This document shows positions 11,232 through 21,325 of a DNA stretch of 64,000 nucleotides, piece by piece. Within the stretch, counting starts at the first letter, position 1, and each line of letters opens with the position of its first letter. The stretch spans positions 1,426,001 through 1,490,000 of the forward strand of contig NZ_CP092370.1 of the NCBI RefSeq assembly GCF_028473145.1, given 5' to 3'. The stretch is from Flavobacterium sp. CBA20B-1 (GTDB lineage Bacteria > Bacteroidota > Bacteroidia > Flavobacteriales > Flavobacteriaceae). The notes beneath the pieces were generated by a model. That model searched no databases and was not told the DNA's origin. It saw nothing but the letters and a program-made list of their open reading frames with translations. Both the position numbers and the translations under genes were made by a program.

Positions 11232-12233
11232 TTATTTTAAGTTGTTCAACAAAATCGCGGCTTCCTTGGCAAAATAAGTCGAAATCAAACTCGCTCCGGC
11301 GCGTTTAATGCACATGAGTTGTTCCATCATGATTTTGTCGTGATCGAGCCAACCTTTTTCGGCAGCAGCTTTTATCATGGCATATTCGCCCGAAACGTGA
11401 AAAACGGTAACGGGAATATTTACGGCATTTTTTACCTCACGAACGATGTCGAGGTAAGCAATTCCGGGTTTTACCATCACCATATCGGCGCCTTCTTCGG
11501 CGTCCCAAACGGCTTCTTTCACAGCTTCGATACGATTGGCGTAATCCATTTGGTAGGTTTTTTTGTCTTTTGGTATAACTTCTCCAGTTTCTTTTGGCGC
11601 AGAATCCAATGCATCACGAAATGGTCCGTAAAAAGCCGAAGCATATTTAGCCGAATAACTCATAATGCCCACATTTTGAAAACCTGCCGCATCTAATCCT
11701 TGACGCAAACGCAACACACGACCGTCCATCATATCGCTTGGTGCTACAAAATCGGCTCCGGCTTTGGCATGTGAAACCGCCATTTTTACGAGTGCTTCGT
11801 TGGTTTCGTCATTGGCGATATCACCGTTTTTTATGATTCCATCATGACCGTAAATTGAATAGGGGTCGAGCGCCACATCGGGCATTACAATCATTTCAGG
11901 ACAGGCGATTTTGATTTCGCGAATGGCACGTTGCATCAGTCCATTGTCGTTCCAAGCTTCTTTTCCGGTGTTGTCTTTTAACGATTCATCAACCTTTACA
12001 TAAATGTTTATAGCACGAATTCCTAAAGCAAATAATTCTTTCACTTCTTCCACCGTTAAATCTATCGAACGACGAAAAATTCCGGGCATTGAAGGGATTT
12101 CTACTTTTACGTTTTCGCCTTCGGCAATAAACATCGGAAACATAAAATCGCTCGGACTTAAAGTGGTTTCGCGAACCAAACTTCTCATAGATTCGTTTAC
12201 TCTTAAACGACGACCTCTGTGTAATGGAAACAT
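11232..12233 (-). CDS. hemB: Delta-aminolevulinic acid dehydratase (porphobilinogen synthase)
   Basis: 333 residues, full length. Joins two 5-aminolevulinate molecules into porphobilinogen in the cytoplasm. The start RRLRVNESMRSLVRET is typical. The two Schiff-base lysines are in SYSAKYASAFYGPFR and MVMVKPGIAYLDI. The metal segment is DVALDPYSIYGHDG: Ala, Asp and Asp take the places of the three zinc cysteines, as in plant and Pseudomonas enzymes. This predicts a magnesium-type rather than zinc-type enzyme. It is near the 3' end of the minus-strand hem cluster, 18 bp after the barrel-like gene at 12252. Confidence 0.97.
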   Translation of the reverse strand: MFPLHRGRRLRVNESMRSLVRETTLSPSDFMFPMFIAEGENVKVEIPSMPGIFRRSIDLTVEEVKELFALGIRAINIYVKVDESLKDNTGKEAWNDNGLMQRAIREIKIACPEMIVMPDVALDPYSIYGHDGIIKNGDIANDETNEALVKMAVSHAKAGADFVAPSDMMDGRVLRLRQGLDAAGFQNVGIMSYSAKYASAFYGPFRDALDSAPKETGEVIPKDKKTYQMDYANRIEAVKEAVWDAEEGADMVMVKPGIAYLDIVREVKNAVNIPVTVFHVSGEYAMIKAAAEKGWLDHDKIMMEQLMCIKRAGASLISTYFAKEAAILLNNLK

Positions 12234-12251
12234 AATTTTGTTGTTTTTAAA

Positions 12252-13190
12252 TTAAAACCCAAATTTTTGGATTATATCATCATAAGTTTTTTTCACTTTT
12301 TTTGGTGGATCAAATCGATAGCCAGCTGCTAATTTTAACTCGGCAAACGAATCAAATATTTCGCCTTGACTTTCTTTTTCAAAAAAATTAGTGCTATTAA
12401 TGCCTAAATAGGCAAAAAAATCATTGGTATTGTAGCCTAGTCTTATATTTGTTGATATTTCATATAAGGCTCTAGCTTTTTTTTCGGCAATATTTATGCC
12501 AGCTCCAACAAGTAATCCGCCCGAAATCAAAAACTTTTCGTGAATAACCCAATTGTAATAATACGATGGTGCTAATGAAAACGTGTATATATCGATATGT
12601 AAATGTTCGTTTGTGTCTTTTGATGTTAGGTTGGTATAATATACAGAAAAATTAGGCACAAAACTGCCCGCACTTTTTTGTTGCCATTGGTTTTGGTTAA
12701 AAATGGTTTTGTACGAAAATTTATCATTGAAGACATACGATGTGGTTCCGCCCAATTTTGTAGAGCGAAAACGTGGCATATAAAACCTTTCGTAGTTGTT
12801 GTAATCTACAAAAAAACCTTTTTGATTGATGAAAGTTAGAGATTGATACCATTTTTTGTAATTGAAGCGAAAGCCTAAATTAAAGTTGTTTGATTCTAAT
12901 TTTGACGCATCTGTTTTTAAAAAATTTGGTGTAAATCCGATAGAAAGGTCTATCAATTTATAACTTAATCCGACCACAAGTTTTTGCTGCGTGTTGGGTG
13001 TAAAATTGGCTTGATAATTACCTTCAATATCTTGATAATTTATTAAAAAACTATTAGAACTGTTTTGGTAAGTGATACTCGCCACCACTTTTTCGTCATA
13101 CGATACGGCGTAAGTATTCAGCGTGTCATTTTGAGCAACAACACGTAATGGAAAGAACGTAATGACGCAAAACCAAATTAATTTATCCAT
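12252..13190 (-). CDS. Putative outer-membrane beta-barrel protein within the hem operon
   Basis: 312 residues. A signal peptide (MDKLIWFCVITFFPLRVVAQ) is followed by repeated amphipathic strands with alternating aromatics, for example LVVGLSYKLIDLSIGFTPNF, FNLGFRFNYKKWYQSLTFIN and LKLAAGYRFDPP. It resembles DUF4421-type outer-membrane proteins of Bacteroidota, but I am not certain of the family. The ATG overlaps the last 13 bases of hemF, so translation is probably coupled to that enzyme. hemB follows 18 bp later. Nothing in it binds haem visibly; a role in porphyrin or haem traffic is only suggested by position. Confidence 0.72.
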   Translation of the reverse strand: MDKLIWFCVITFFPLRVVAQNDTLNTYAVSYDEKVVASITYQNSSNSFLINYQDIEGNYQANFTPNTQQKLVVGLSYKLIDLSIGFTPNFLKTDASKLESNNFNLGFRFNYKKWYQSLTFINQKGFFVDYNNYERFYMPRFRSTKLGGTTSYVFNDKFSYKTIFNQNQWQQKSAGSFVPNFSVYYTNLTSKDTNEHLHIDIYTFSLAPSYYYNWVIHEKFLISGGLLVGAGINIAEKKARALYEISTNIRLGYNTNDFFAYLGINSTNFFEKESQGEIFDSFAELKLAAGYRFDPPKKVKKTYDDIIQKFGF

Positions 13191-14083
13191 TCTTTAGGGT
13201 TTTCTAAAGTTTTGATTAACTTTTCTTCTTCACTTCCTGCTTCCGGATGATAATCATAAATCCACTGAACGTGCGGTGGTAAACTCATCAAAATACTTTC
13301 GATGCGTCCGTTGGTTTTTAGTCCGAAAAGTGTTCCTTTATCGTGAACCAAATTGAATTCTACATAACGCCCACGACGAATTTCTTGCCATGTTCGTTGA
13401 GCATCTGTATAAGGTAAATCTTTTCTTTTTTCGACAATTGGCACATAACATGCTAAAAAACTATTGCCAACTTCGGTTACAAAATTATACCAATCGTTCA
13501 TAGACATTTGGTCGTTTTCTTTCAAATAATCGAAAAACAAACCTCCAATACCACGTGCTTCAATGCGGTGAGCATTCCAAAAATAATCATCGCATTGTTT
13601 TTTATACTTTGGATAAAATTCAGGATTGTGCTTGTCGCAAGCGGTTTTACACGTTTGATGAAAATGTTTTGCATCTTCTTCAAACAGATAATAAGGTGTA
13701 AGATCTTGTCCGCCACCAAACCAACTATTAATTACATTTCCGCCATCGTCATACATTTCAAAATAACGCCAATTGGCATGAACCGTTGGCACCATCGGGC
13801 TTTTGGGATGAATGACCAAACTCAATCCGCAGGCAAAAAAATCGGCTTCGCCCACGTTGAACATTTTCTGCATACTTTCAGGTAATTTACCGTGAACCGC
13901 CGAAATATTTACACCGCCTTTTTCAAAAACATTGCCATTTTCAATCACGCGGGTTTGTCCGCCGCCGCCTTCGGGTCGTTCCCAGATGTCTTCACGGAAT
14001 TTTGCTTTACCATCTATCTCTTCTAATTTTGAAGTGATTTGGTTTTGAAGATTTTTGATGTAGGCTAAGAATTTTTCTTTCAT
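13178..14083 (-). CDS. hemF: Oxygen-dependent coproporphyrinogen III oxidase
   Basis: 301 residues, normal length. Converts coproporphyrinogen III to protoporphyrinogen IX using O2, in the cytoplasm. The family segments are all present: WERPEGGGGQTRVIENGNVF, VNISAVHGKLP, PMVPTVHANWRYFE with the conserved His, SWFGGGQDLTPYYLFEEDA, and RRGRYVEFNLVHDKGTLFGL. This aerobic enzyme fits an O2-respiring organism. The 3' end overlaps the start of the barrel-like gene, and a small unknown gene lies 31 bp upstream. Confidence 0.97.
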   Translation of the reverse strand: MKEKFLAYIKNLQNQITSKLEEIDGKAKFREDIWERPEGGGGQTRVIENGNVFEKGGVNISAVHGKLPESMQKMFNVGEADFFACGLSLVIHPKSPMVPTVHANWRYFEMYDDGGNVINSWFGGGQDLTPYYLFEEDAKHFHQTCKTACDKHNPEFYPKYKKQCDDYFWNAHRIEARGIGGLFFDYLKENDQMSMNDWYNFVTEVGNSFLACYVPIVEKRKDLPYTDAQRTWQEIRRGRYVEFNLVHDKGTLFGLKTNGRIESILMSLPPHVQWIYDYHPEAGSEEEKLIKTLENPKEWIN

Positions 14084-14114
14084 GGTTTGTGGTGTTTAGT
14101 CTTGCAAGGTCTAA

Positions 14115-14474
14115 TTATAATTTTCCCATCTTATTCATAATTTCAAACGAGAACATTTTACTTTCGTTTTGTATGAATTGATACAAATGTTTGGCGCGTT
14201 CTTTTAATAATTGATTGGGTTGTTTTGTGTCTAAACTCACTAAAATATCTGCCAATTTTTCCATCTGCTCCCAAGGAAATTGCAAATCGATCAATTGTTG
14301 AAAAAATAAATTTTCTTCTTTTTCCAACACATCGTTTTTAGACAACCCAGTCTCTCCTAAAGTAGTCCAAAACACAGCTTCGTTCCAATTTTCAGGTACA
14401 AATGTGATCCCTGATAGCTTTTGTAAAACAGAGATAATTCTTTGTTCGGTTTCGTCTTTTTTACTGGTGAGCAT
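14115..14474 (-). CDS. Small cytoplasmic hypothetical protein in the hem operon
   Basis: 119 residues, mostly helical, with no signal peptide, no membrane helix and no cysteines. Notable stretches are DETEQRIISVLQKLSGITF, ENWNEAVFWTTLGETGLSK and LLKERAKHLYQFIQNESKMF. I do not recognise a family. It lies between hemE (129 bp upstream) and hemF (31 bp downstream) on the same strand. It is thus probably transcribed with haem genes, though it need not act in haem synthesis. Confidence 0.65.
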   Translation of the reverse strand: MLTSKKDETEQRIISVLQKLSGITFVPENWNEAVFWTTLGETGLSKNDVLEKEENLFFQQLIDLQFPWEQMEKLADILVSLDTKQPNQLLKERAKHLYQFIQNESKMFSFEIMNKMGKL

Positions 14475-14603
14475 TTTTGTGGTTTTTAGGTTTGAGTTTT
14501 AGTTTAAAGTTGGCGTTATTTTCCGTTAAAAGATATGATTTTTGCTAAACCGTTTATTTTTTATTTCATACATAACTAAAAACTTACAACTTTTAACTTA
14601 TAA

Positions 14604-15629
14604 CTATTTTTTATACTCCTTCACCGCATCAATAAAAGCTTTGGCATTTTCTAAAGGAATGTCTGGTAAAATACCGTGCCCCAGATTAACGATGTATTTA
14701 TCTTTCCCGAATTGGTTAATCATATCGGTTACCATGATTTTGATTTTTTCTGGTGAAGAATACAAACGTGTGGGATCAAAATTTCCTTGCAACGTAATGT
14801 TTCCGCCAGTTAAGTAGCGTGCGTTTTTAGGCGAGCACGTCCAATCTACACCAAGCGCCGAAGCACCAGATTTTGCCATCACATCTAACGCAAACCAGCA
14901 ACCTTTTCCAAAAGCAATAACAGGCGCATCGTCTTTTAAAGCATCAATAATTTGTTGAATATATTTCCATGAAAATTCTTGATAATCTTCAGGCGATAAC
15001 ATTCCGCCCCAAGAATCGAACACTTGTACCGCATTGCAACCAGCTTTTACTTTTTCTTTTAAATAAGCAATGGTTGTATCTGTAATTTTTTGAAGCAATT
15101 GATGCGCTGCAACAGGATTTGTAAAACAGAATTTTTTGGCTTTATCAAAGTTTTTACTGCCTTGTCCTTGTACACAGTAACACAAGATTGTCCATGGCGA
15201 ACCAGCAAAACCAATTAACGGAATCTCGTCATTAAGCTTTTCTTTGGTTGCTTTTATCGCTTGGTACACATAGACTAAAGCTTCGGTAACATCGGGTACA
15301 ATTACGTTGTCTACATCTTTTTGTGTACGGATAGGATTTGGTAAATACGGACCAAAATTAGGTTTCATTTGTACCTCAATATTCATCGCTTGAGGAATCA
15401 CTAAAATATCACTAAATAAAATAGCCGCATCCATACCGTAACGACGTATAGGTTGTACGGTAATCTCACTTGCTAATTCTGGTGTTTGACAACGTGTAAA
15501 GAAATCGTATTTGTCTTTAATTTCCAAAAATTCTGGAAGGTAACGCCCCGCCTGACGCATCATCCACACTGGCGGACGCTCTACGGTTTCTCCTTTTAAT
15601 GCTCGTAAAAATAAATCGTTTTTTATCAT
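14604..15629 (-). CDS. hemE: Uroporphyrinogen decarboxylase
   Basis: 341 residues, complete. Removes four carboxyl groups from uroporphyrinogen III to give coproporphyrinogen III. Signatures: [19 protein letters not shown] near the N-terminus, [14 protein letters not shown] with the catalytic Asp region, [20 protein letters not shown], and the C-terminal [20 protein letters not shown]. It is the fourth gene of the hemA-hemC-hemD-hemE run, 33 bp after hemD. A T-run precedes the ATG. Confidence 0.97.
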
Positions 15630-15662
15630 TTTTTTTTAGCTTTAGGCTTAAAACTGTATGCT

Positions 15663-16358
15663 TTAAGCCAAATTGTTTATCTTATTTTGCTTATCGTTAT
15701 AGTAATTAATGCATTGAATAATCACATTTTCTACCGTTTGCTTTTTGGCAACTACAATGTTGTTCGTAATTCCGTTCAAAGCCGCCGCAGTTGTAGTGCC
15801 AATGCAGAAACAAGTTTGATTTTCAATGGTGTTTTGTTGCAAATAACTGTGAATACCAGACGGACTAAAAAATAGCAATGCATCGGTCTGTGCTTTGATT
15901 TCTATAGAGTTTGCAGTGTTTTGATACACCAAATATTCTTCAAAGTGAATATTGCTTTGTTGCAGGGCATTTGGTAAAACATCTCGTCTTAGATTTCCTG
16001 CGAAAAAGGCTATTTGTTCTACTGAATATTTTTGTTGAATGATGGGTGCTAAATCTGCTGCATACTCTTGAGTTTCCAATACTTCAAAACCGTTTTTTTG
16101 TAACAATTCTTTGGTTTTTGATCCTACACAAATTGCCGGAATTTCTTTCAAATTTTCGATATGTTCATACTGCAACACACTTTTTACGGCATTTTGCGAA
16201 GTGAACAACAATAAAGTCGGAATGGTTTTTAACAGAAACGGAACAAATGAAATTGTGATAAAATCTGCTTCGATAACCGAAAAACCAGCATTTAGCAAAA
16301 ATTGTTTTTGATTGCTTTGAAGTTTTTTGGTTGATAAAACACAGATTTTGGTTTTCAT
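15663..16358 (-). CDS. hemD: Uroporphyrinogen-III synthase
   Basis: 231 residues. Closes and inverts ring D of hydroxymethylbilane. The family is poorly conserved, but the fold pattern is visible: ICVLSTKKLQ at the start, FTSQNAVKSVLQYE, ICVGSKTKELLQKNGFEV, and a second lobe with LLFFSPSGIHSYLQQN and CFCIGTTTAAALN. Position settles the call: it starts 1 bp after the hemC stop and precedes hemE. The C-terminus is slightly extended with Asn/Lys-rich residues. Confidence 0.92.
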   Translation of the reverse strand: MKTKICVLSTKKLQSNQKQFLLNAGFSVIEADFITISFVPFLLKTIPTLLLFTSQNAVKSVLQYEHIENLKEIPAICVGSKTKELLQKNGFEVLETQEYAADLAPIIQQKYSVEQIAFFAGNLRRDVLPNALQQSNIHFEEYLVYQNTANSIEIKAQTDALLFFSPSGIHSYLQQNTIENQTCFCIGTTTAAALNGITNNIVVAKKQTVENVIIQCINYYNDKQNKINNLA

Positions 16359-16359
16359 T

Positions 16360-17283
16360 TTACTTTTTCAATTGTTCTCGAAGTTGTTTCATCAACTGCT
16401 CTCCGCCCTTTTCTAAAATTTCTTTAGCTGCAAAAAATCCTAGTTTTTTCCATTCGTTAATCGGAACATTCTTTTCAATTTCGAATTTTTGTTTTCCGTC
16501 TATCGACAATAAAATCCCTTTGAAATGAATCGTATCGTCAACTTCGTTGTATCTTGCCAAAGCGCCAATTGGGGCAGTACAGCCACCTTCTAACGTGCGC
16601 AAAAACTGCCGTTCGATGTGTGTACAAATTTCGGTTTCGATATCGTTCAATTGAGCCAAAGCATCTAGCACAAAATTATCGTTTGCCATAGCCACGACCA
16701 ACATAGCGCCTTGTGCGGGTGCGGGAATCATCCAATCCAAATCGATAAACTCAGAAGGTTTTAGATTGATTCGTTCCAAACCAGCCGCCGCAAAAATAGC
16801 TCCGTTCCAATCGTTGTCATGCAGTTTTTGCATGCGCGTATTCACATTTCCGCGCAAATCTTCCACTTGGTGTTGGGGATATTTGTTTAACCATTGTGCT
16901 TTTCTGCGCAAACTTCCAGTGGCAATAGTTCCGTTTTCGTTTAAAAAGTCTAGCGAACCTTTATGAACCAAAATATCTAAAATGTTTGCACGTTCTAGAA
17001 CAGCGGCTTGCACAATGCCTTGCGGCAAAGCAGTAGGCACATCTTTCATAGAATGCACCGCAATATCAACCTTACCAGCAATCATGGCAACGTCGAGGGT
17101 TTTGGTGAAAATTCCGGTAATTCCTAGCTCGTACAATGGTTTATCCAAAATAATATCGCCATCGGCTTTTACAGCGATAATTTCTGTTTTATAGCCTAAA
17201 TCGTTTAGCTTTTTTTGTACGGTATTGGCTTGCCACAGTGCCAATTCGCTGTCGCGGGTTCCAATTCGAATGGTTTTAGTCAT
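16360..17283 (-). CDS. hemC: Hydroxymethylbilane synthase (porphobilinogen deaminase)
   Basis: 307 residues, normal length. Polymerises four porphobilinogen units into the linear tetrapyrrole. It starts IRIGTRDSELALWQANTVQ. The active-site stretch VDIAVHSMKDVPTALP and the substrate-binding GSLRRKAQWLNKYPQHQVED are present. The dipyrromethane cofactor cysteine is Cys235 in EGGCTAPIGALA. The ATG overlaps the end of hemA by 8 bp, so the two are translationally coupled. Confidence 0.98.
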   Translation of the reverse strand: MTKTIRIGTRDSELALWQANTVQKKLNDLGYKTEIIAVKADGDIILDKPLYELGITGIFTKTLDVAMIAGKVDIAVHSMKDVPTALPQGIVQAAVLERANILDILVHKGSLDFLNENGTIATGSLRRKAQWLNKYPQHQVEDLRGNVNTRMQKLHDNDWNGAIFAAAGLERINLKPSEFIDLDWMIPAPAQGAMLVVAMANDNFVLDALAQLNDIETEICTHIERQFLRTLEGGCTAPIGALARYNEVDDTIHFKGILLSIDGKQKFEIEKNVPINEWKKLGFFAAKEILEKGGEQLMKQLREQLKK

Positions 17284-18535
17284 TTTGTAAAGATTCTAAT
17301 TGAAACACTTTTCCAATCCATTCGATGCTTTCGTCCACTTCGGTTTCATCATCTTTTAAATGATTGGCAAAATGTGTGGTGATTTTTTGAATAAGGCGGC
17401 TTGTAATCAATTCTGCCTGTTCTTCATCAAAATTATTTATTTTCTTTTTGTGGTATTTTAATTCGTTTTGCTTCATCTCTTCCAATTTGGCTTTCAAGGC
17501 GTGAATGGTCGGAGCAAACTTTCGGGCTTGTGTCCAAGTGATGAATTCGTGTTTCACTTCTTCAATGATTGCCATGGCTTGTGGCACATATTGCTTGCGT
17601 TTTTCCAAGGTGTCATCGGTCATTTGCGATAAAGTGTCTAGATGAATCAGTTCCACGCCGTTTGTTTCCAAAACATTTTCATTCACATTTTTTGGAATGG
17701 ATAAATCTAAAATCAACAACGGTTTTTTTAGATTAAGCAGTTCTTTGTCGATGGTAGGGTTTTGAGCACCAGTGGCAACAATCAACACGTCGGTATTTTG
17801 AATTTCGGCTTGCAAATCAGCATAATCTTTTACGATTAAGTTAAACTTGCCTGCAATTTTCTGTGCTTTGTCTTTGGTGCGATTAATCAACGTAATATGA
17901 CTGTTTTTGGTATGCTTTACAAGGTTTTCGCAGGTGTTTCTACCAATTTTTCCCGTTCCAAACAATAAAATATTTTTGTCTTTTATGTTGGAAACGTTCT
18001 TCAAAATATAGTGAACCGAAGCAAAAGATACCGAAGTGGCACCTGTGCTTATTTCGGTTTCGTTTTTAATGCGTTTGCTTGCCTGAATTACCGAATTTAC
18101 CAATCGTTCAAAATAGTTGTTGGTTAATCCTTTTTCTCGTGCAGCAATAAAACCGGTTTTAACTTGGCTTATAATTTCAAAATCGCCTAATATTTGGCTA
18201 TCCATACCAGTACCCACTTTGAAAAGATGCGAAACGGCTTCGTTGTTTTTGTGCACATACGCAACACGCTGAAAATCGTCAATAGTTCCACTGCTGTGTG
18301 CACACAATAATGAAATCAATTGAAAAGGATGTTCTGCAAAACCATACAATTCGGTTCTATTACAAGTAGAAATAGCCATAACCGACGAAATTCCCTGTAA
18401 GTGGGCATCTGCCAACAAATCTAATTTTGCTTGTTCGCTTAAGCTGAATTTGCCTCGCATTTCTGCATCGGCTTTTTTATAGCTTAACCCAACCACATAA
18501 AAATGCGACGGTTTTATATCGTTGTTGTTTTTCAT
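17276..18535 (-). CDS. hemA: Glutamyl-tRNA reductase
   Basis: 419 residues. Reduces glutamyl-tRNA to glutamate-1-semialdehyde, the first committed step of the C5 pathway. The catalytic Cys58 lies in MAISTCNRTELYGF. The binding loop HLFKVGTGMDSQILGD is intact, and the NADPH-binding domain carries LFGTGKIGRNTCENLVKHT. The dimerisation helix region is near the C-terminus. It is the first gene of the minus-strand hem operon. The partner hemL (aminomutase) is not in the window. A -7 promoter element lies 26 bp upstream. Confidence 0.97.
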   Translation of the reverse strand: MKNNNDIKPSHFYVVGLSYKKADAEMRGKFSLSEQAKLDLLADAHLQGISSVMAISTCNRTELYGFAEHPFQLISLLCAHSSGTIDDFQRVAYVHKNNEAVSHLFKVGTGMDSQILGDFEIISQVKTGFIAAREKGLTNNYFERLVNSVIQASKRIKNETEISTGATSVSFASVHYILKNVSNIKDKNILLFGTGKIGRNTCENLVKHTKNSHITLINRTKDKAQKIAGKFNLIVKDYADLQAEIQNTDVLIVATGAQNPTIDKELLNLKKPLLILDLSIPKNVNENVLETNGVELIHLDTLSQMTDDTLEKRKQYVPQAMAIIEEVKHEFITWTQARKFAPTIHALKAKLEEMKQNELKYHKKKINNFDEEQAELITSRLIQKITTHFANHLKDDETEVDESIEWIGKVFQLESLQND

Positions 18536-18560
18536 TCTTTACTTTTGTAATAAAGTGCTA

Positions 18561-18568
18561 CAAATTTA
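18561..18568 (-). promoter_or_regulatory. -7 element of the hemA operon promoter
   Basis: Read on the minus strand, TAAATTTG matches TAnnTTTG exactly, 26 bp before the hemA ATG. No clear TTG is found at -33, so an activator such as the divergent AraC-type protein may be needed. That last point is inference. Confidence 0.5.
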
Positions 18569-18638
18569 CAGGCTTCGTTTGAATTAAAATAACGCTAAAA
18601 GGACTAATTATAACCTTTGAGTTATTTTTACACTAACA

Positions 18639-18671
18639 TTGCGGTACTTTTCTTAAAAAGGCTTACATTTG
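18639..18671 (+). promoter_or_regulatory. Promoter of the AraC-type regulator gene
   Basis: TTG at 18639-18641 and TACATTTG (exact TAnnTTTG) at 18664-18671 with a 22-bp spacer. The leader before the ATG at 18767 is about 90 bases. The hemA -7 box lies about 100 bp away facing the other way, so both arms of the hem locus can be controlled from this gap. Confidence 0.55.
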
Positions 18672-18766
18672 CTGTGTTAAAACGATTATTTTGAATCTAT
18701 ATTTAGAACTATTCTAAATAAAATAATCTCGAGTTGTGTTTGTCTAATAAAAATAAAAATAACGCT

Positions 18767-19636
18767 ATGAGTACTCAAGAAGATGTTATTTTAGAAGATG
18801 ACTTTATCTGCATCCGTTTAAAGAACGAAAGCGATAATTTACAGATAGTTACGAAAGATGTGGGCAATGAAGTGTTGCAATTTCATTTTATGTTGAAAGG
18901 CAGCAGCAAGTTTATTTTTAACAATGGTTCTTATGCCATGCCGGTGAACGAAGAAAATAGTTTAACACTGTATAATCCCCAAAAAAATTTACCGATTTAC
19001 TTGGAACTTCAGCCTCATTCGTGGATTATTTCAATTATAATATCGATTAAAAAATTCCACAGTCTTTTTTCAACTGAAGCAGAATTTATTCCTTTTTTAA
19101 ATAAGGATACCATCAATAGAAAACATTATGCCCAAAATGGTATTACACCTTCTATGGCAGTGGTTTTGTATCAAATAATGAATTTTAACCTACATTCATC
19201 GGTAAAAAAACTGTACTATAAGGCTAAGGTTTACGAACTTTTAAGTTTGCTTTTCAACAAGCCCGAAGGGGAAGAAGATGAAAGCTGCCCGTTTAAAACC
19301 GATGAAGAGGAAATCATGAAGATTAAACAAGCAAAAGATATTCTCATTAAAAATATGGCCGAACCACCCACTCTGCAAAAGCTTGCCGATGAAATTGGAT
19401 TGAATATTAAAAAATTAAAACAAGGCTTTAAGCAAGTTTATGGCGATACCGTATATGGTTTTTTGTTTGATTATAAAATGGAATATGCCCGAAAATTATT
19501 AGATAGTGGCACCTATAATGTAAACGAAGTGGGCATTCGCATAGGCTACAGCACTGCCAGCCATTTTATTGCCGCTTTTAAGAAAAAATTTGGCACAACG
19601 CCTAAAAAATATTTAATGTCGTTAACCGCAAATTAA
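18767..19636 (+). CDS. AraC-family regulator with Cys-Pro motif, candidate haem regulator
   Basis: 289 residues from the ATG at 18767 (MSTQEDVILEDDF); a TTG start 11 codons earlier is unlikely. Residues 1-165 are a cupin-like sensory region (QFHFMLKGSSKFIFNN, LTLYNPQKNLPIYLELQP). Residues about 185-286 form the double helix-turn-helix AraC domain: PPTLQKLADEIGLNIKKLKQ and VNEVGIRIGYSTASHFIAAF, then GTTPKKYL. The linker between them is acidic and holds Cys174-Pro175 in DESCPFKTD. Cys-Pro is the core of haem regulatory motifs. The gene stands between the hemA operon (divergent) and hemH-hemJ (downstream, same strand). Control of the hem locus is likely; haem sensing is a hypothesis. Confidence 0.9.
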   Translation: MSTQEDVILEDDFICIRLKNESDNLQIVTKDVGNEVLQFHFMLKGSSKFIFNNGSYAMPVNEENSLTLYNPQKNLPIYLELQPHSWIISIIISIKKFHSLFSTEAEFIPFLNKDTINRKHYAQNGITPSMAVVLYQIMNFNLHSSVKKLYYKAKVYELLSLLFNKPEGEEDESCPFKTDEEEIMKIKQAKDILIKNMAEPPTLQKLADEIGLNIKKLKQGFKQVYGDTVYGFLFDYKMEYARKLLDSGTYNVNEVGIRIGYSTASHFIAAFKKKFGTTPKKYLMSLTAN

Positions 19637-19708
19637 TAAATTAAAAAATGTAAAAAAGCTTTGCCTAAGTTCTAAAATCTAACAAAGCTAAATGATAAAA
19701 ACAAAGAA

Positions 19709-20722
19709 ATGAAAGGAGTTTTATTAGTAAATTTAGGTTCGCCTGAAAGTCCAACACCAAAAGATGTAAAGCCATATTTAGACGAATTTTTAATGGATAA
19801 ATATGTAATCGATGTTCCGTATCTGTTGCGGGCTTTAATCGTTAGAGGTTTTATTTTAAGAAAGCGTCCTGAAAATTCGGCGCATGCTTATGCACAAATC
19901 TGGACCGATGAAGGTTCGCCTTTGATTGTTTTTTCTAAAAGAATGCATGAAAAGGTGAAAAAACAAGTGGACATTCCCGTTGCTTTAGCCATGCGATACG
20001 GCACCATGACTATTGAAAAAGGCTTGCAAGAACTAAAAGAACAAGGAGTGACCGATGTGATGCTTTTAGCTCTGTATCCGCAATACGCCATGGCATCAAC
20101 CACCACTATTTGGGCTTTGGCTGATGAATTGGTTGCTACCAAATTCCCGGAAATGAAATTGACCAAAGTTCCCGCTTTTTACAACAAACCCGATTTTATT
20201 CAAGCTTTGGCAAATTCCATTAAAAAACATTTGGAAGGATATGATTACGACCACTTATTGTTTTCGTACCACGGAATTCCAAAACGCCATATCCGCAAAA
20301 CTGATGTAACCAAATCGCATTGCAAAATTGATGGTTCTTGTTGCAATACTCCATCGCCTGCACACGAATTTTGCTACCGTCACCAATGTTTTGAAACCAC
20401 CAAACAAGTGGTTAAATTGCTGGGAATTCCTGAGGGCAAATACAGTGAAACTTTTCAATCCAGATTGGCTGGTGACAAATGGTTAACACCCTATACCGAT
20501 GTGGAAATTAACAAAATGCCTGCAAAAGGAATTAAAAAATTAGCGGTTGTAACGCCTGCTTTCGTGGCAGACTGTTTAGAAACTTTAGAAGAAATTGCCA
20601 TGCGCGCTAACGAAGATTTTAAGGCGCATGGAGGTGAAGAATTTTTTGCCGTTCCTTGTTTGAACGATGAAGACGAATGGTGTGGTGTAGTAGCCAATTG
20701 GATTAAAGATTTTAATAAATAA
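19709..20722 (+). CDS. hemH: Ferrochelatase
   Basis: 337 residues. Inserts iron into protoporphyrin IX to form haem. The start is GVLLVNLGSPESPTPKDVKP. The catalytic His188 is in SYHGIPKRHI, and Glu residues of the C-terminal lobe lie in DCLETLEEIA. Between residues 205 and 227 there are five cysteines (205, 211, 212, 222, 227) in the segment after the catalytic His. Internal cysteine clusters of this kind hold a [2Fe-2S] centre in some bacterial ferrochelatases. The gene starts 72 bp after the AraC gene, and a weak hairpin (AGCTTTG/CAAAGCT, 19658-19689) lies in the gap. hemJ follows after 69 bp. Confidence 0.97.
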   Translation: MKGVLLVNLGSPESPTPKDVKPYLDEFLMDKYVIDVPYLLRALIVRGFILRKRPENSAHAYAQIWTDEGSPLIVFSKRMHEKVKKQVDIPVALAMRYGTMTIEKGLQELKEQGVTDVMLLALYPQYAMASTTTIWALADELVATKFPEMKLTKVPAFYNKPDFIQALANSIKKHLEGYDYDHLLFSYHGIPKRHIRKTDVTKSHCKIDGSCCNTPSPAHEFCYRHQCFETTKQVVKLLGIPEGKYSETFQSRLAGDKWLTPYTDVEINKMPAKGIKKLAVVTPAFVADCLETLEEIAMRANEDFKAHGGEEFFAVPCLNDEDEWCGVVANWIKDFNK

Positions 20723-20791: not shown

Positions 20792-21325
20792 ATGTATCTG
20801 TATTTAAAGGCTTTACACATTATTTTTGTAGTTTGCTGGTTTGCCGGACTTTTTTACATTGTGCGCCTGTTTGTATATTATGCAGAAGCACAATTGAAAC
20901 CAACAGTTGAAAAGGAAATTCTTTCCAATCAATACCAAATAATGACTCACAGATTGTGGTACATCATCACGTTTCCATCTGCTATTTTAGCAACTATTTT
21001 TGGCGTGTGGATGCTTATCGAAAATGCATCGTTGTTGAAAATGCCTTGGATGCATGTAAAGCTACTTTTTGTTTTGTTGCTTTGGTTGTATCATTTTAAA
21101 TGTCAACAATTTGTAACTCAAATCAAAAATAAAAACCTAACCAAAACAAGTTCGTTTTTCAGAATTTGGAACGAAGGTGCCACTATAATCCTTTTTTCAG
21201 TAGTTTTTTTAGTAATTTTAAAAAGTGCAATTAATTGGATTTTTGGTGTAGTGGGCATTATTGGTTTATCATTACTGCTTATGCTGGGAATTAAATTTTA
21301 TAAAAAAATACGCACTAAAAGCTAG
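20792..21325 (+). CDS. hemJ: Protoporphyrinogen IX oxidase HemJ
   Basis: 177 residues with four or five transmembrane helices. The HemJ/UPF0093 signatures are YLKALHIIFVVCWFAGLFYI with the conserved His, RLFVYYAEAQ, RLWYIITFPSAILATIFGVW, and PWMHVKLLFVLLLWLYH with the second conserved His. HemJ oxidises protoporphyrinogen IX to protoporphyrin IX in the inner membrane and is itself a haem protein. It completes the pathway between HemF and HemH. A short C-terminal basic tail (KFYKKIRTKS) ends 8 bp before the histidine kinase gene. Confidence 0.92.
   Translation: MYLYLKALHIIFVVCWFAGLFYIVRLFVYYAEAQLKPTVEKEILSNQYQIMTHRLWYIITFPSAILATIFGVWMLIENASLLKMPWMHVKLLFVLLLWLYHFKCQQFVTQIKNKNLTKTSSFFRIWNEGATIILFSVVFLVILKSAINWIFGVVGIIGLSLLLMLGIKFYKKIRTKS

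Follow-up and report, generated by a model that had tools for sequence, protein, structure and literature searches.

The DNA considered here, a stretch of 64,000 nucleotides from Flavobacterium sp. CBA20B-1 (the window), holds a haem synthesis locus with the gene of an AraC-type regulator between its two arms, which raises the question of what this regulator senses and which genes it controls. Since its family mostly adjoins genes of haem synthesis or import and shares a histidine and a Cys-Pro dipeptide, the regulator probably measures haem, and it is fairly likely that, as a member of the AraC family, it adjusts haem supply in response to haem by the mechanism proposed below. The genes and codons concerned are the following.

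11232..18535, minus strand: divergent hem operon, hemA first (open reading frames and Pfam)
17276..18535, minus strand: hemA, glutamyl-tRNA reductase, first gene of this operon (Pfam GlutR)
18767..19636, plus strand: gene of the AraC-type regulator, 289 residues (open reading frame)
19058..19060, plus strand: His98 codon, invariant in the 188 family members
19286..19291, plus strand: Cys174-Pro175 codons, invariant in the 188 family members
19709..20722, plus strand: hemH, ferrochelatase (Pfam)
20792..21325, plus strand: hemJ (UPF0093), above the Pfam cut-off, with an NCBIfam HemJ score below its cut-off

Pfam confirmed the six neighbours scanned against it: hemA (GlutR), HemD, hemF (coproporphyrinogen oxidase), hemB (ALAD), hemH, and hemJ (UPF0093). 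These matches agree with the first-pass annotation of this DNA, which had placed the regulator gene with the divergent hemA operon on one side and hemH-hemJ on the other, and its description of a 289-residue AraC-type protein with Cys174-Pro175 in a linker is likewise borne out by the reading frame and by the HTH_18 match.

According to the predicted structure and Pfam, the regulator consists of a barrel (residues 2–93), helices up to residue 162, a flexible linker, and an HTH domain (180–288), with HTH_18 at residues 206–283 (1.2e-18). It holds the C-terminal double HTH domain and the N-terminal AraC-type effector/dimer domain of AraC/XylS proteins, and the model aligns across both halves with AraC-type structures, as expected of an ordinary AraC fold. 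Its only cysteines are at positions 15 and 174, and the sole Cys-Pro dipeptide is that of residues 174–175, within EGEEDESCPFKTDEEE; as in Cys-Pro haem regulatory motifs, it is conserved and lies in a flexible segment, since residues 166–177 have a pLDDT below 50 and Cys174 is modelled as disordered. His98 lies in a short helix (94–101) after the last barrel strand of the model. An alternative in-frame TTG start is possible 33 bp upstream of the ATG. NCBIfam offered no above-cut-off name for the protein, whose closest relatives are found in Paenimyroides (86–87% identity), and a second copy was not found in the 3.04-Mb genome, where there is one other weak match (E 8e-6).

In the first search for related loci, the best 80 of 576 relatives were kept, and all of these 80 hold CPF at the site and have hem genes nearby. 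The search then covered 296 genomes from the phylum, 291 from the order to which genome G186 belongs (which we take to be Cytophagales), and 296 from the window's order, and every in-family match was read. Membership was set at an HMM score of at least 200 bits, with L152 and L153 (154–156 bits) admitted for carrying CPF, whereas seven matches of 141–162 bits without CPF were put outside the family. This gives 188 members including the window (171 distinct, 74 at less than 80% identity), 17 of which repeat the core sequence of another, mostly where one genome was reached by two tools; the tree, the operator matrix, and the first counts rest on the 160 members read before the last 28 were added. 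All 50 genomes sampled from the family to which the window belongs have the regulator, the listed misses being all more distant, and the member of Flavobacterium johnsoniae, a laboratory species, is L039.

Position 98 is His and positions 174–175 are Cys-Pro in 188/188 members. These three columns and six in the HTH domain are the only invariant ones, so that nothing else outside the DNA-binding domain is kept throughout, in a family where pairwise identity over the N-terminal half, taken among 69 non-redundant members, has a median of 32% and goes down to 12%. As controls, 41 other AraC proteins were compared, namely 34 weaker profile matches (not all of them) and the seven excluded ones, with wide flanks read for 27. 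At the aligned places, none of the 41 has Cys-Pro, six have Cys, three have His98, and two have both His and Cys. The suggestion that Cys-Pro would be kept in hem-linked orthologues thus held in all 159 that were read (window included), and Cys-Pro as a common AraC feature was rejected, although L127 and L142 carry one far upstream. With the motif columns removed, a tree by a quick method placed 56 thinned members in a single clade against 16 outsiders (SH-aLRT 99); L152 and L153 fall inside it (starred values of 97 and 99) and the six excluded matches that were included, of the seven, fall outside. As a separate observation, Cys-Lys or Cys-Arg stands at the site in the AraC proteins L112, L113, L118, L119, L125, and L133, with His98 also present in L113 and L118; five loci of this group, when viewed, had no consistent haem linkage.

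When neighbours are counted within 7 kb, centre to centre, the 188 members lie beside haem synthesis genes in 159 cases, opposite a divergent HmuY-type uptake locus in 17, and in neither setting in 12 (142, 17, and 12 of the 171 distinct sequences). Chance adjacency to a haem operon was rejected, because the hem linkage holds across many genera. The hem context is mostly a divergent hemA, with 124 readable gaps of 60–700 bp, and in L192 and L288 the regulator comes after the hem genes on the same strand. HmuY-type loci are spread over three or more distinct regions of the tree; in the 15 that were checked, the nearest divergent gene always encodes either HmuY or the TonB receptor that goes with it, the frames being −38 to 182 nt apart, and in 13 of them one of the genes exceeds the Pfam HmuY cut-off, the call in the other two (L147 and L197) coming from a profile of our own alone. 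Of the 27 control loci whose wide flanks were read, hem genes occur in one (L255), at a distance of 3–8 kb, and HmuY within 7 kb (centre to centre) in none, that of L157 being 7.3 kb away by this measure and 6.4 kb edge to edge. All 12 members with neither context keep the motif.

Several neighbourhoods show further particularities. Extra genes lie between hemA and the regulator in some Flavobacterium (L031:4589-5176 and L099:3893-4483), among them one for a lipoprotein-like protein of 195–196 residues whose start, IYxRLGG, resembles by eye a truncated globin. L052 and L075 are typical Flavobacterium-like hem loci in records titled as Klebsiella pneumoniae and Chitinophaga pinensis MAGs, the bins of which are probably mislabelled or mixed.

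The gap of 231 bp between hemA and the regulator gene contains, besides the two promoters, a repeat and a palindrome that were absent from the first-pass annotation:

18561..18568, minus strand: −7 promoter box of hemA, TAAATTTG, exact TAnnTTTG
18586..18597, plus strand: O1, predicted operator half-site AAAATAACGCTA, in the place of a hemA −33 box
18607..18618, plus strand: O2, degenerate second half-site, 21 bp from O1, with 7 of 12 bases as in O1 (by eye)
18664..18671, plus strand: −7 promoter box of the regulator gene, TACATTTG, exact TAnnTTTG, with TTG at 18639–18641
18701..18719, no strand assigned: predicted Fur box ATTTAGAACTATTCTAAAT in the regulator leader
18756..18767, plus strand: O3, predicted half-site, exact copy of O1 170 bp away, overlapping the ATG of the regulator

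With a third exact TAnnTTTG box at 18540–18547 (plus strand), the gap holds three, against 0.33 predicted by the rate in the window, so the earlier report of such boxes for both directions stands. So does its remark that the hemA promoter has a −7 box and no clear −33 TTG: TTG is absent at −33 here, and likewise in 95 of the 108 related gaps having the hemA −7 box. The 12-bp repeat AAAATAACGCTA, for which shuffling of the whole window gives an expectation of 0.03, occurs exactly at O1 and O3 and at no other place in the 3.04-Mb genome. Allowing one mismatch adds 54 sites and brings the count to 56; a backwards control yields more, 94, so no further targets are claimed in this genome.

The geometry of these elements is conserved. 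CGCT marks O1 in 109 of the 124 gaps. Of these, 108 have an exact −7 box for hemA, which lies 24 nt from the CGCT in 98/108 (29/39 non-redundant). Pairs of CGCT at exactly 21 bp number 68 over the 124 gaps, the window's own second half-site being degenerate, so that the predicted operator has the form usual for AraC/XylS proteins, a direct repeat with a spacing of about 21 bp at the promoter to be controlled. The distance from O1 to O3, 170 bp in the window, is 166–168 bp in 77 of 94 gaps, or about 16 helical turns, also in 23 of 37 with dissimilar spacers, and the O1-O2-O3 layout can be recognized by eye in other families, as well as at several HmuY loci, O3 then falling within the opening codons of the regulator gene. 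A matrix was built from 13 distinct O1 sites of Flavobacteriaceae, and a pair was called significant when reached by at most one of 60 shuffles. By this measure, the 21-bp pair is found in 18/26 held-out hem loci, 8/15 HmuY loci, 1/10 scanned loci with neither context, and 6/27 controls; the last figure indicates that the half-site is partly common to wider AraC relatives, which the predicted operator is not specific enough to exclude. The putative operator is well supported for hem loci and moderately supported for HmuY loci. Control of the hem genes by the regulator, as proposed from the window alone, is thus backed both by linkage and by a predicted operator conserved in fixed geometry at the promoter.

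We infer haem as the effector, Cys174 and His98 as its ligands, and the sign of control. Haem would be held by Cys174 of the Cys-Pro haem regulatory motif, and His98 would probably serve as the other ligand. The haem-free regulator, bound to O1-O2, would recruit RNA polymerase to the hemA promoter, which has no −33 box, whereas the haem-bound form would leave the DNA or move to O1-O3 with formation of a DNA loop, so that expression of both hemA and the regulator's own gene would fall. The sign is chosen because synthesis and uptake should fall at high haem, and because of the missing −33 box; looping to O3 is suggested by the operator layout. The position of the regulator facing HmuY uptake in relatives would follow the same rule, that little haem in the cell calls for more supply. 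The first-pass annotation had read the protein as a possible haem sensor that would close a feedback loop on synthesis. This reading is partly supported: motif conservation stood, control of the hem genes is supported, and haem as the effector gains support from the uptake loci and from genomes devoid of hemA and hemB, whereas that picture lacked the invariant His98, which emerged from the family alignment, the looping-type operator layout, the Fur input, and a role wider than synthesis.

Iron enters the scheme through the palindrome in the regulator leader. Its presumed resemblance to an Irr-type (ICE) site was dropped, as a Riemerella Fur box fits. It lies near the start codon, and 18 of its 19 bases agree with the predicted Fur box of Riemerella (PMC5609570). 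The core TTAGA-N4-TTCTAA is strictly present in 81 of the 124 related gaps (24 of 52 non-redundant). Because the −7 box of the regulator gene has the Fur box on its downstream side, iron-loaded Fur should reduce the amount of regulator, and Fur would contribute the iron control of this gene. Iron and haem inputs may thus meet at 18701–18719.

The same box can be turned into an argument for a different effector. Iron, an iron chelate, or thiol redox may be what is sensed, with His98 and Cys174 binding iron, or with Cys174 acting as an oxidation switch, and haem genes being targeted because haem needs iron. Besides the Fur box, the ordinary AraC fold, which siderophore regulators share, and the suitability of an invariant cysteine for redox sensing speak for this explanation. 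However, iron control is probably supplied by Fur already, the identified targets are haem genes, and the proline would be unneeded for a redox switch. Moreover, no other cysteine is conserved and 20 of 69 non-redundant members have none, so that an intramolecular disulphide cannot be general, and the explanation appears unlikely. The invariant residues could also be kept for another reason, such as metal, thiol redox, or a domain contact. The Cys-Pro dipeptide might be a structural element of the linker, the effector, haem or another, binding only in the barrel near His98, as the location of this residue just after the last barrel strand and the family-specific Phe39, Phe49, Phe51, Tyr56, Phe101, and Tyr121, in the barrel sequence or just after it, would allow. 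Yet apart from Cys174-Pro175-Phe176 the linker varies, and the model shows it as disordered; why structure should demand a cysteine and no other residue is therefore not apparent, and this explanation is quite unlikely. Haem bound through Cys174, with His98 as a second ligand, is the reading retained here.

Haem-responsive one-component regulators are a known kind, for which the present family would add a candidate with AraC fold. Siderophore uptake is controlled by AraC-type regulators such as PchR, YbtA, and AlcR, which resemble the family in fold and in having an iron-related effector, and differ from it in that this effector is a siderophore, PchR reportedly requiring pyochelin; the Cys-Pro dipeptide was likewise missing from the related AraC proteins read. 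In E. coli, AraC binds the operators araI1-I2 and araO2. It responds to another effector, and the sign proposed here would be the opposite, the effector turning the target off, with looping suggested by layout only. Among haem regulators, one of the closest systems is Irr from Bradyrhizobium, which a review describes as having both a Cys-Pro haem regulatory motif and a second site with His, and as controlling a haem synthesis gene, hemB (PMC11442138). Irr has a Fur-family fold, in contrast to the AraC barrel and HTH domain found here, where Pfam detects only an AraC-type HTH, and it undergoes haem-dependent degradation, which is not a known property of the AraC-type regulator. The same review, from 2024, names Fur, MarR, TetR, LysR, and two-component types of bacterial haem regulators, and its main text contains neither "AraC" nor "Bacteroid" (PMC11442138). 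No haem-responsive AraC regulator was recognizable from title or start of abstract among the matches listed in the open PMC literature.

The uptake loci facing the regulator in 17 cases are of the type of HmuR/HmuY and HfpR/HfpY of Bacteroidota; HfpY binds haem and the hfp operon is described as iron-responsive, in a paper that does not use the word "AraC" (PMC9331221). Control of haem synthesis seems to be little described in this phylum. In F. psychrophilum, the enzymes of the pathway rise under oxygen limitation, according to a study the main text of which is equally without "AraC" (PMC9723704), so that haem synthesis enzymes are regulated in this group. The family supplies a candidate haem sensor for Bacteroidota, with two candidate ligands and a predicted operator of 12 bp, and the case for a haem-sensing AraC family, as built from comparison of sequences, is strong and specific.

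The setting that best tells haem from its precursors is that of genomes without synthesis, for which hemA was searched as PF05201 and hemB as PF00490. The two genes co-occur: among 33 chosen genomes, both are present in the same 12, and five further genomes have neither. Both are absent from 14 of the 17 HmuY-type genomes (G449, G510, and G663 having both) and from all 12 no-context genomes, 26/29 in all, several of the genomes lacking them being less than 90% complete and G186, G049, G146, and G417 being listed as 100% complete; the presence of hem genes in hem-linked genomes is true by definition and hence no proof. COX1 was found in 22 of 22 genomes tested, 20 of which have no hemA and hemB, so haem should be needed there. 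In the order of G186, hemB is found in 248 of 291 genomes and is missing in 8 of 11 that bear the regulator versus 35 of 280 others (Fisher p 1.5e-5, kinship ignored).

The regulator thus outlives haem synthesis, which argues against a synthesis intermediate as its effector and for haem itself. A regulator that controls hem genes in response to aminolevulinate, coproporphyrin, or protoporphyrin would suit the 159/188 members beside synthesis genes and the frequent position of hemH downstream, but it is very unlikely, as members of the clade, with all three invariant residues, are still found in 26 genomes where neither hemA nor hemB was detected. There, such a precursor cannot be made by known routes and would have to come from imported porphyrin. 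Haem would fit as effector in both the synthesis and the uptake settings, whereas a precursor hardly can where hemA and hemB are missing. Relatives devoid of these genes have retained the regulator, which in more than half of them faces an HmuY-type uptake locus. This retention, in 26 genomes, is clear evolutionary evidence that loss of a pathway need not part a regulator from its effector. The wider proposal is tentative, falling a little short of probable: a new family of haem sensors with an AraC fold, in which His98 and Cys174 would be the haem ligands, which would raise or lower the supply of haem by way of a DNA loop like that of AraC, and which, being kept after loss of synthesis and often facing import, would follow the metabolite rather than the pathway.

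Some of the genomes without hemA and hemB have other genes beside the regulator. A frame of 652–1068 residues with RNIGPxGxSGRVTxID adjoins it in L146, L186, L190, L191, and L193, with no HmuY nearby, and a cupredoxin-like gene together with a set that looks by eye like iron uptake (TonB receptor-like, imelysin-like) does so in L195 and L196. One of the COX1 matches (G691:C5:1862-3199) holds nine in-frame TGA codons and perhaps belongs to a foreign, mitochondrial contig in the bin.
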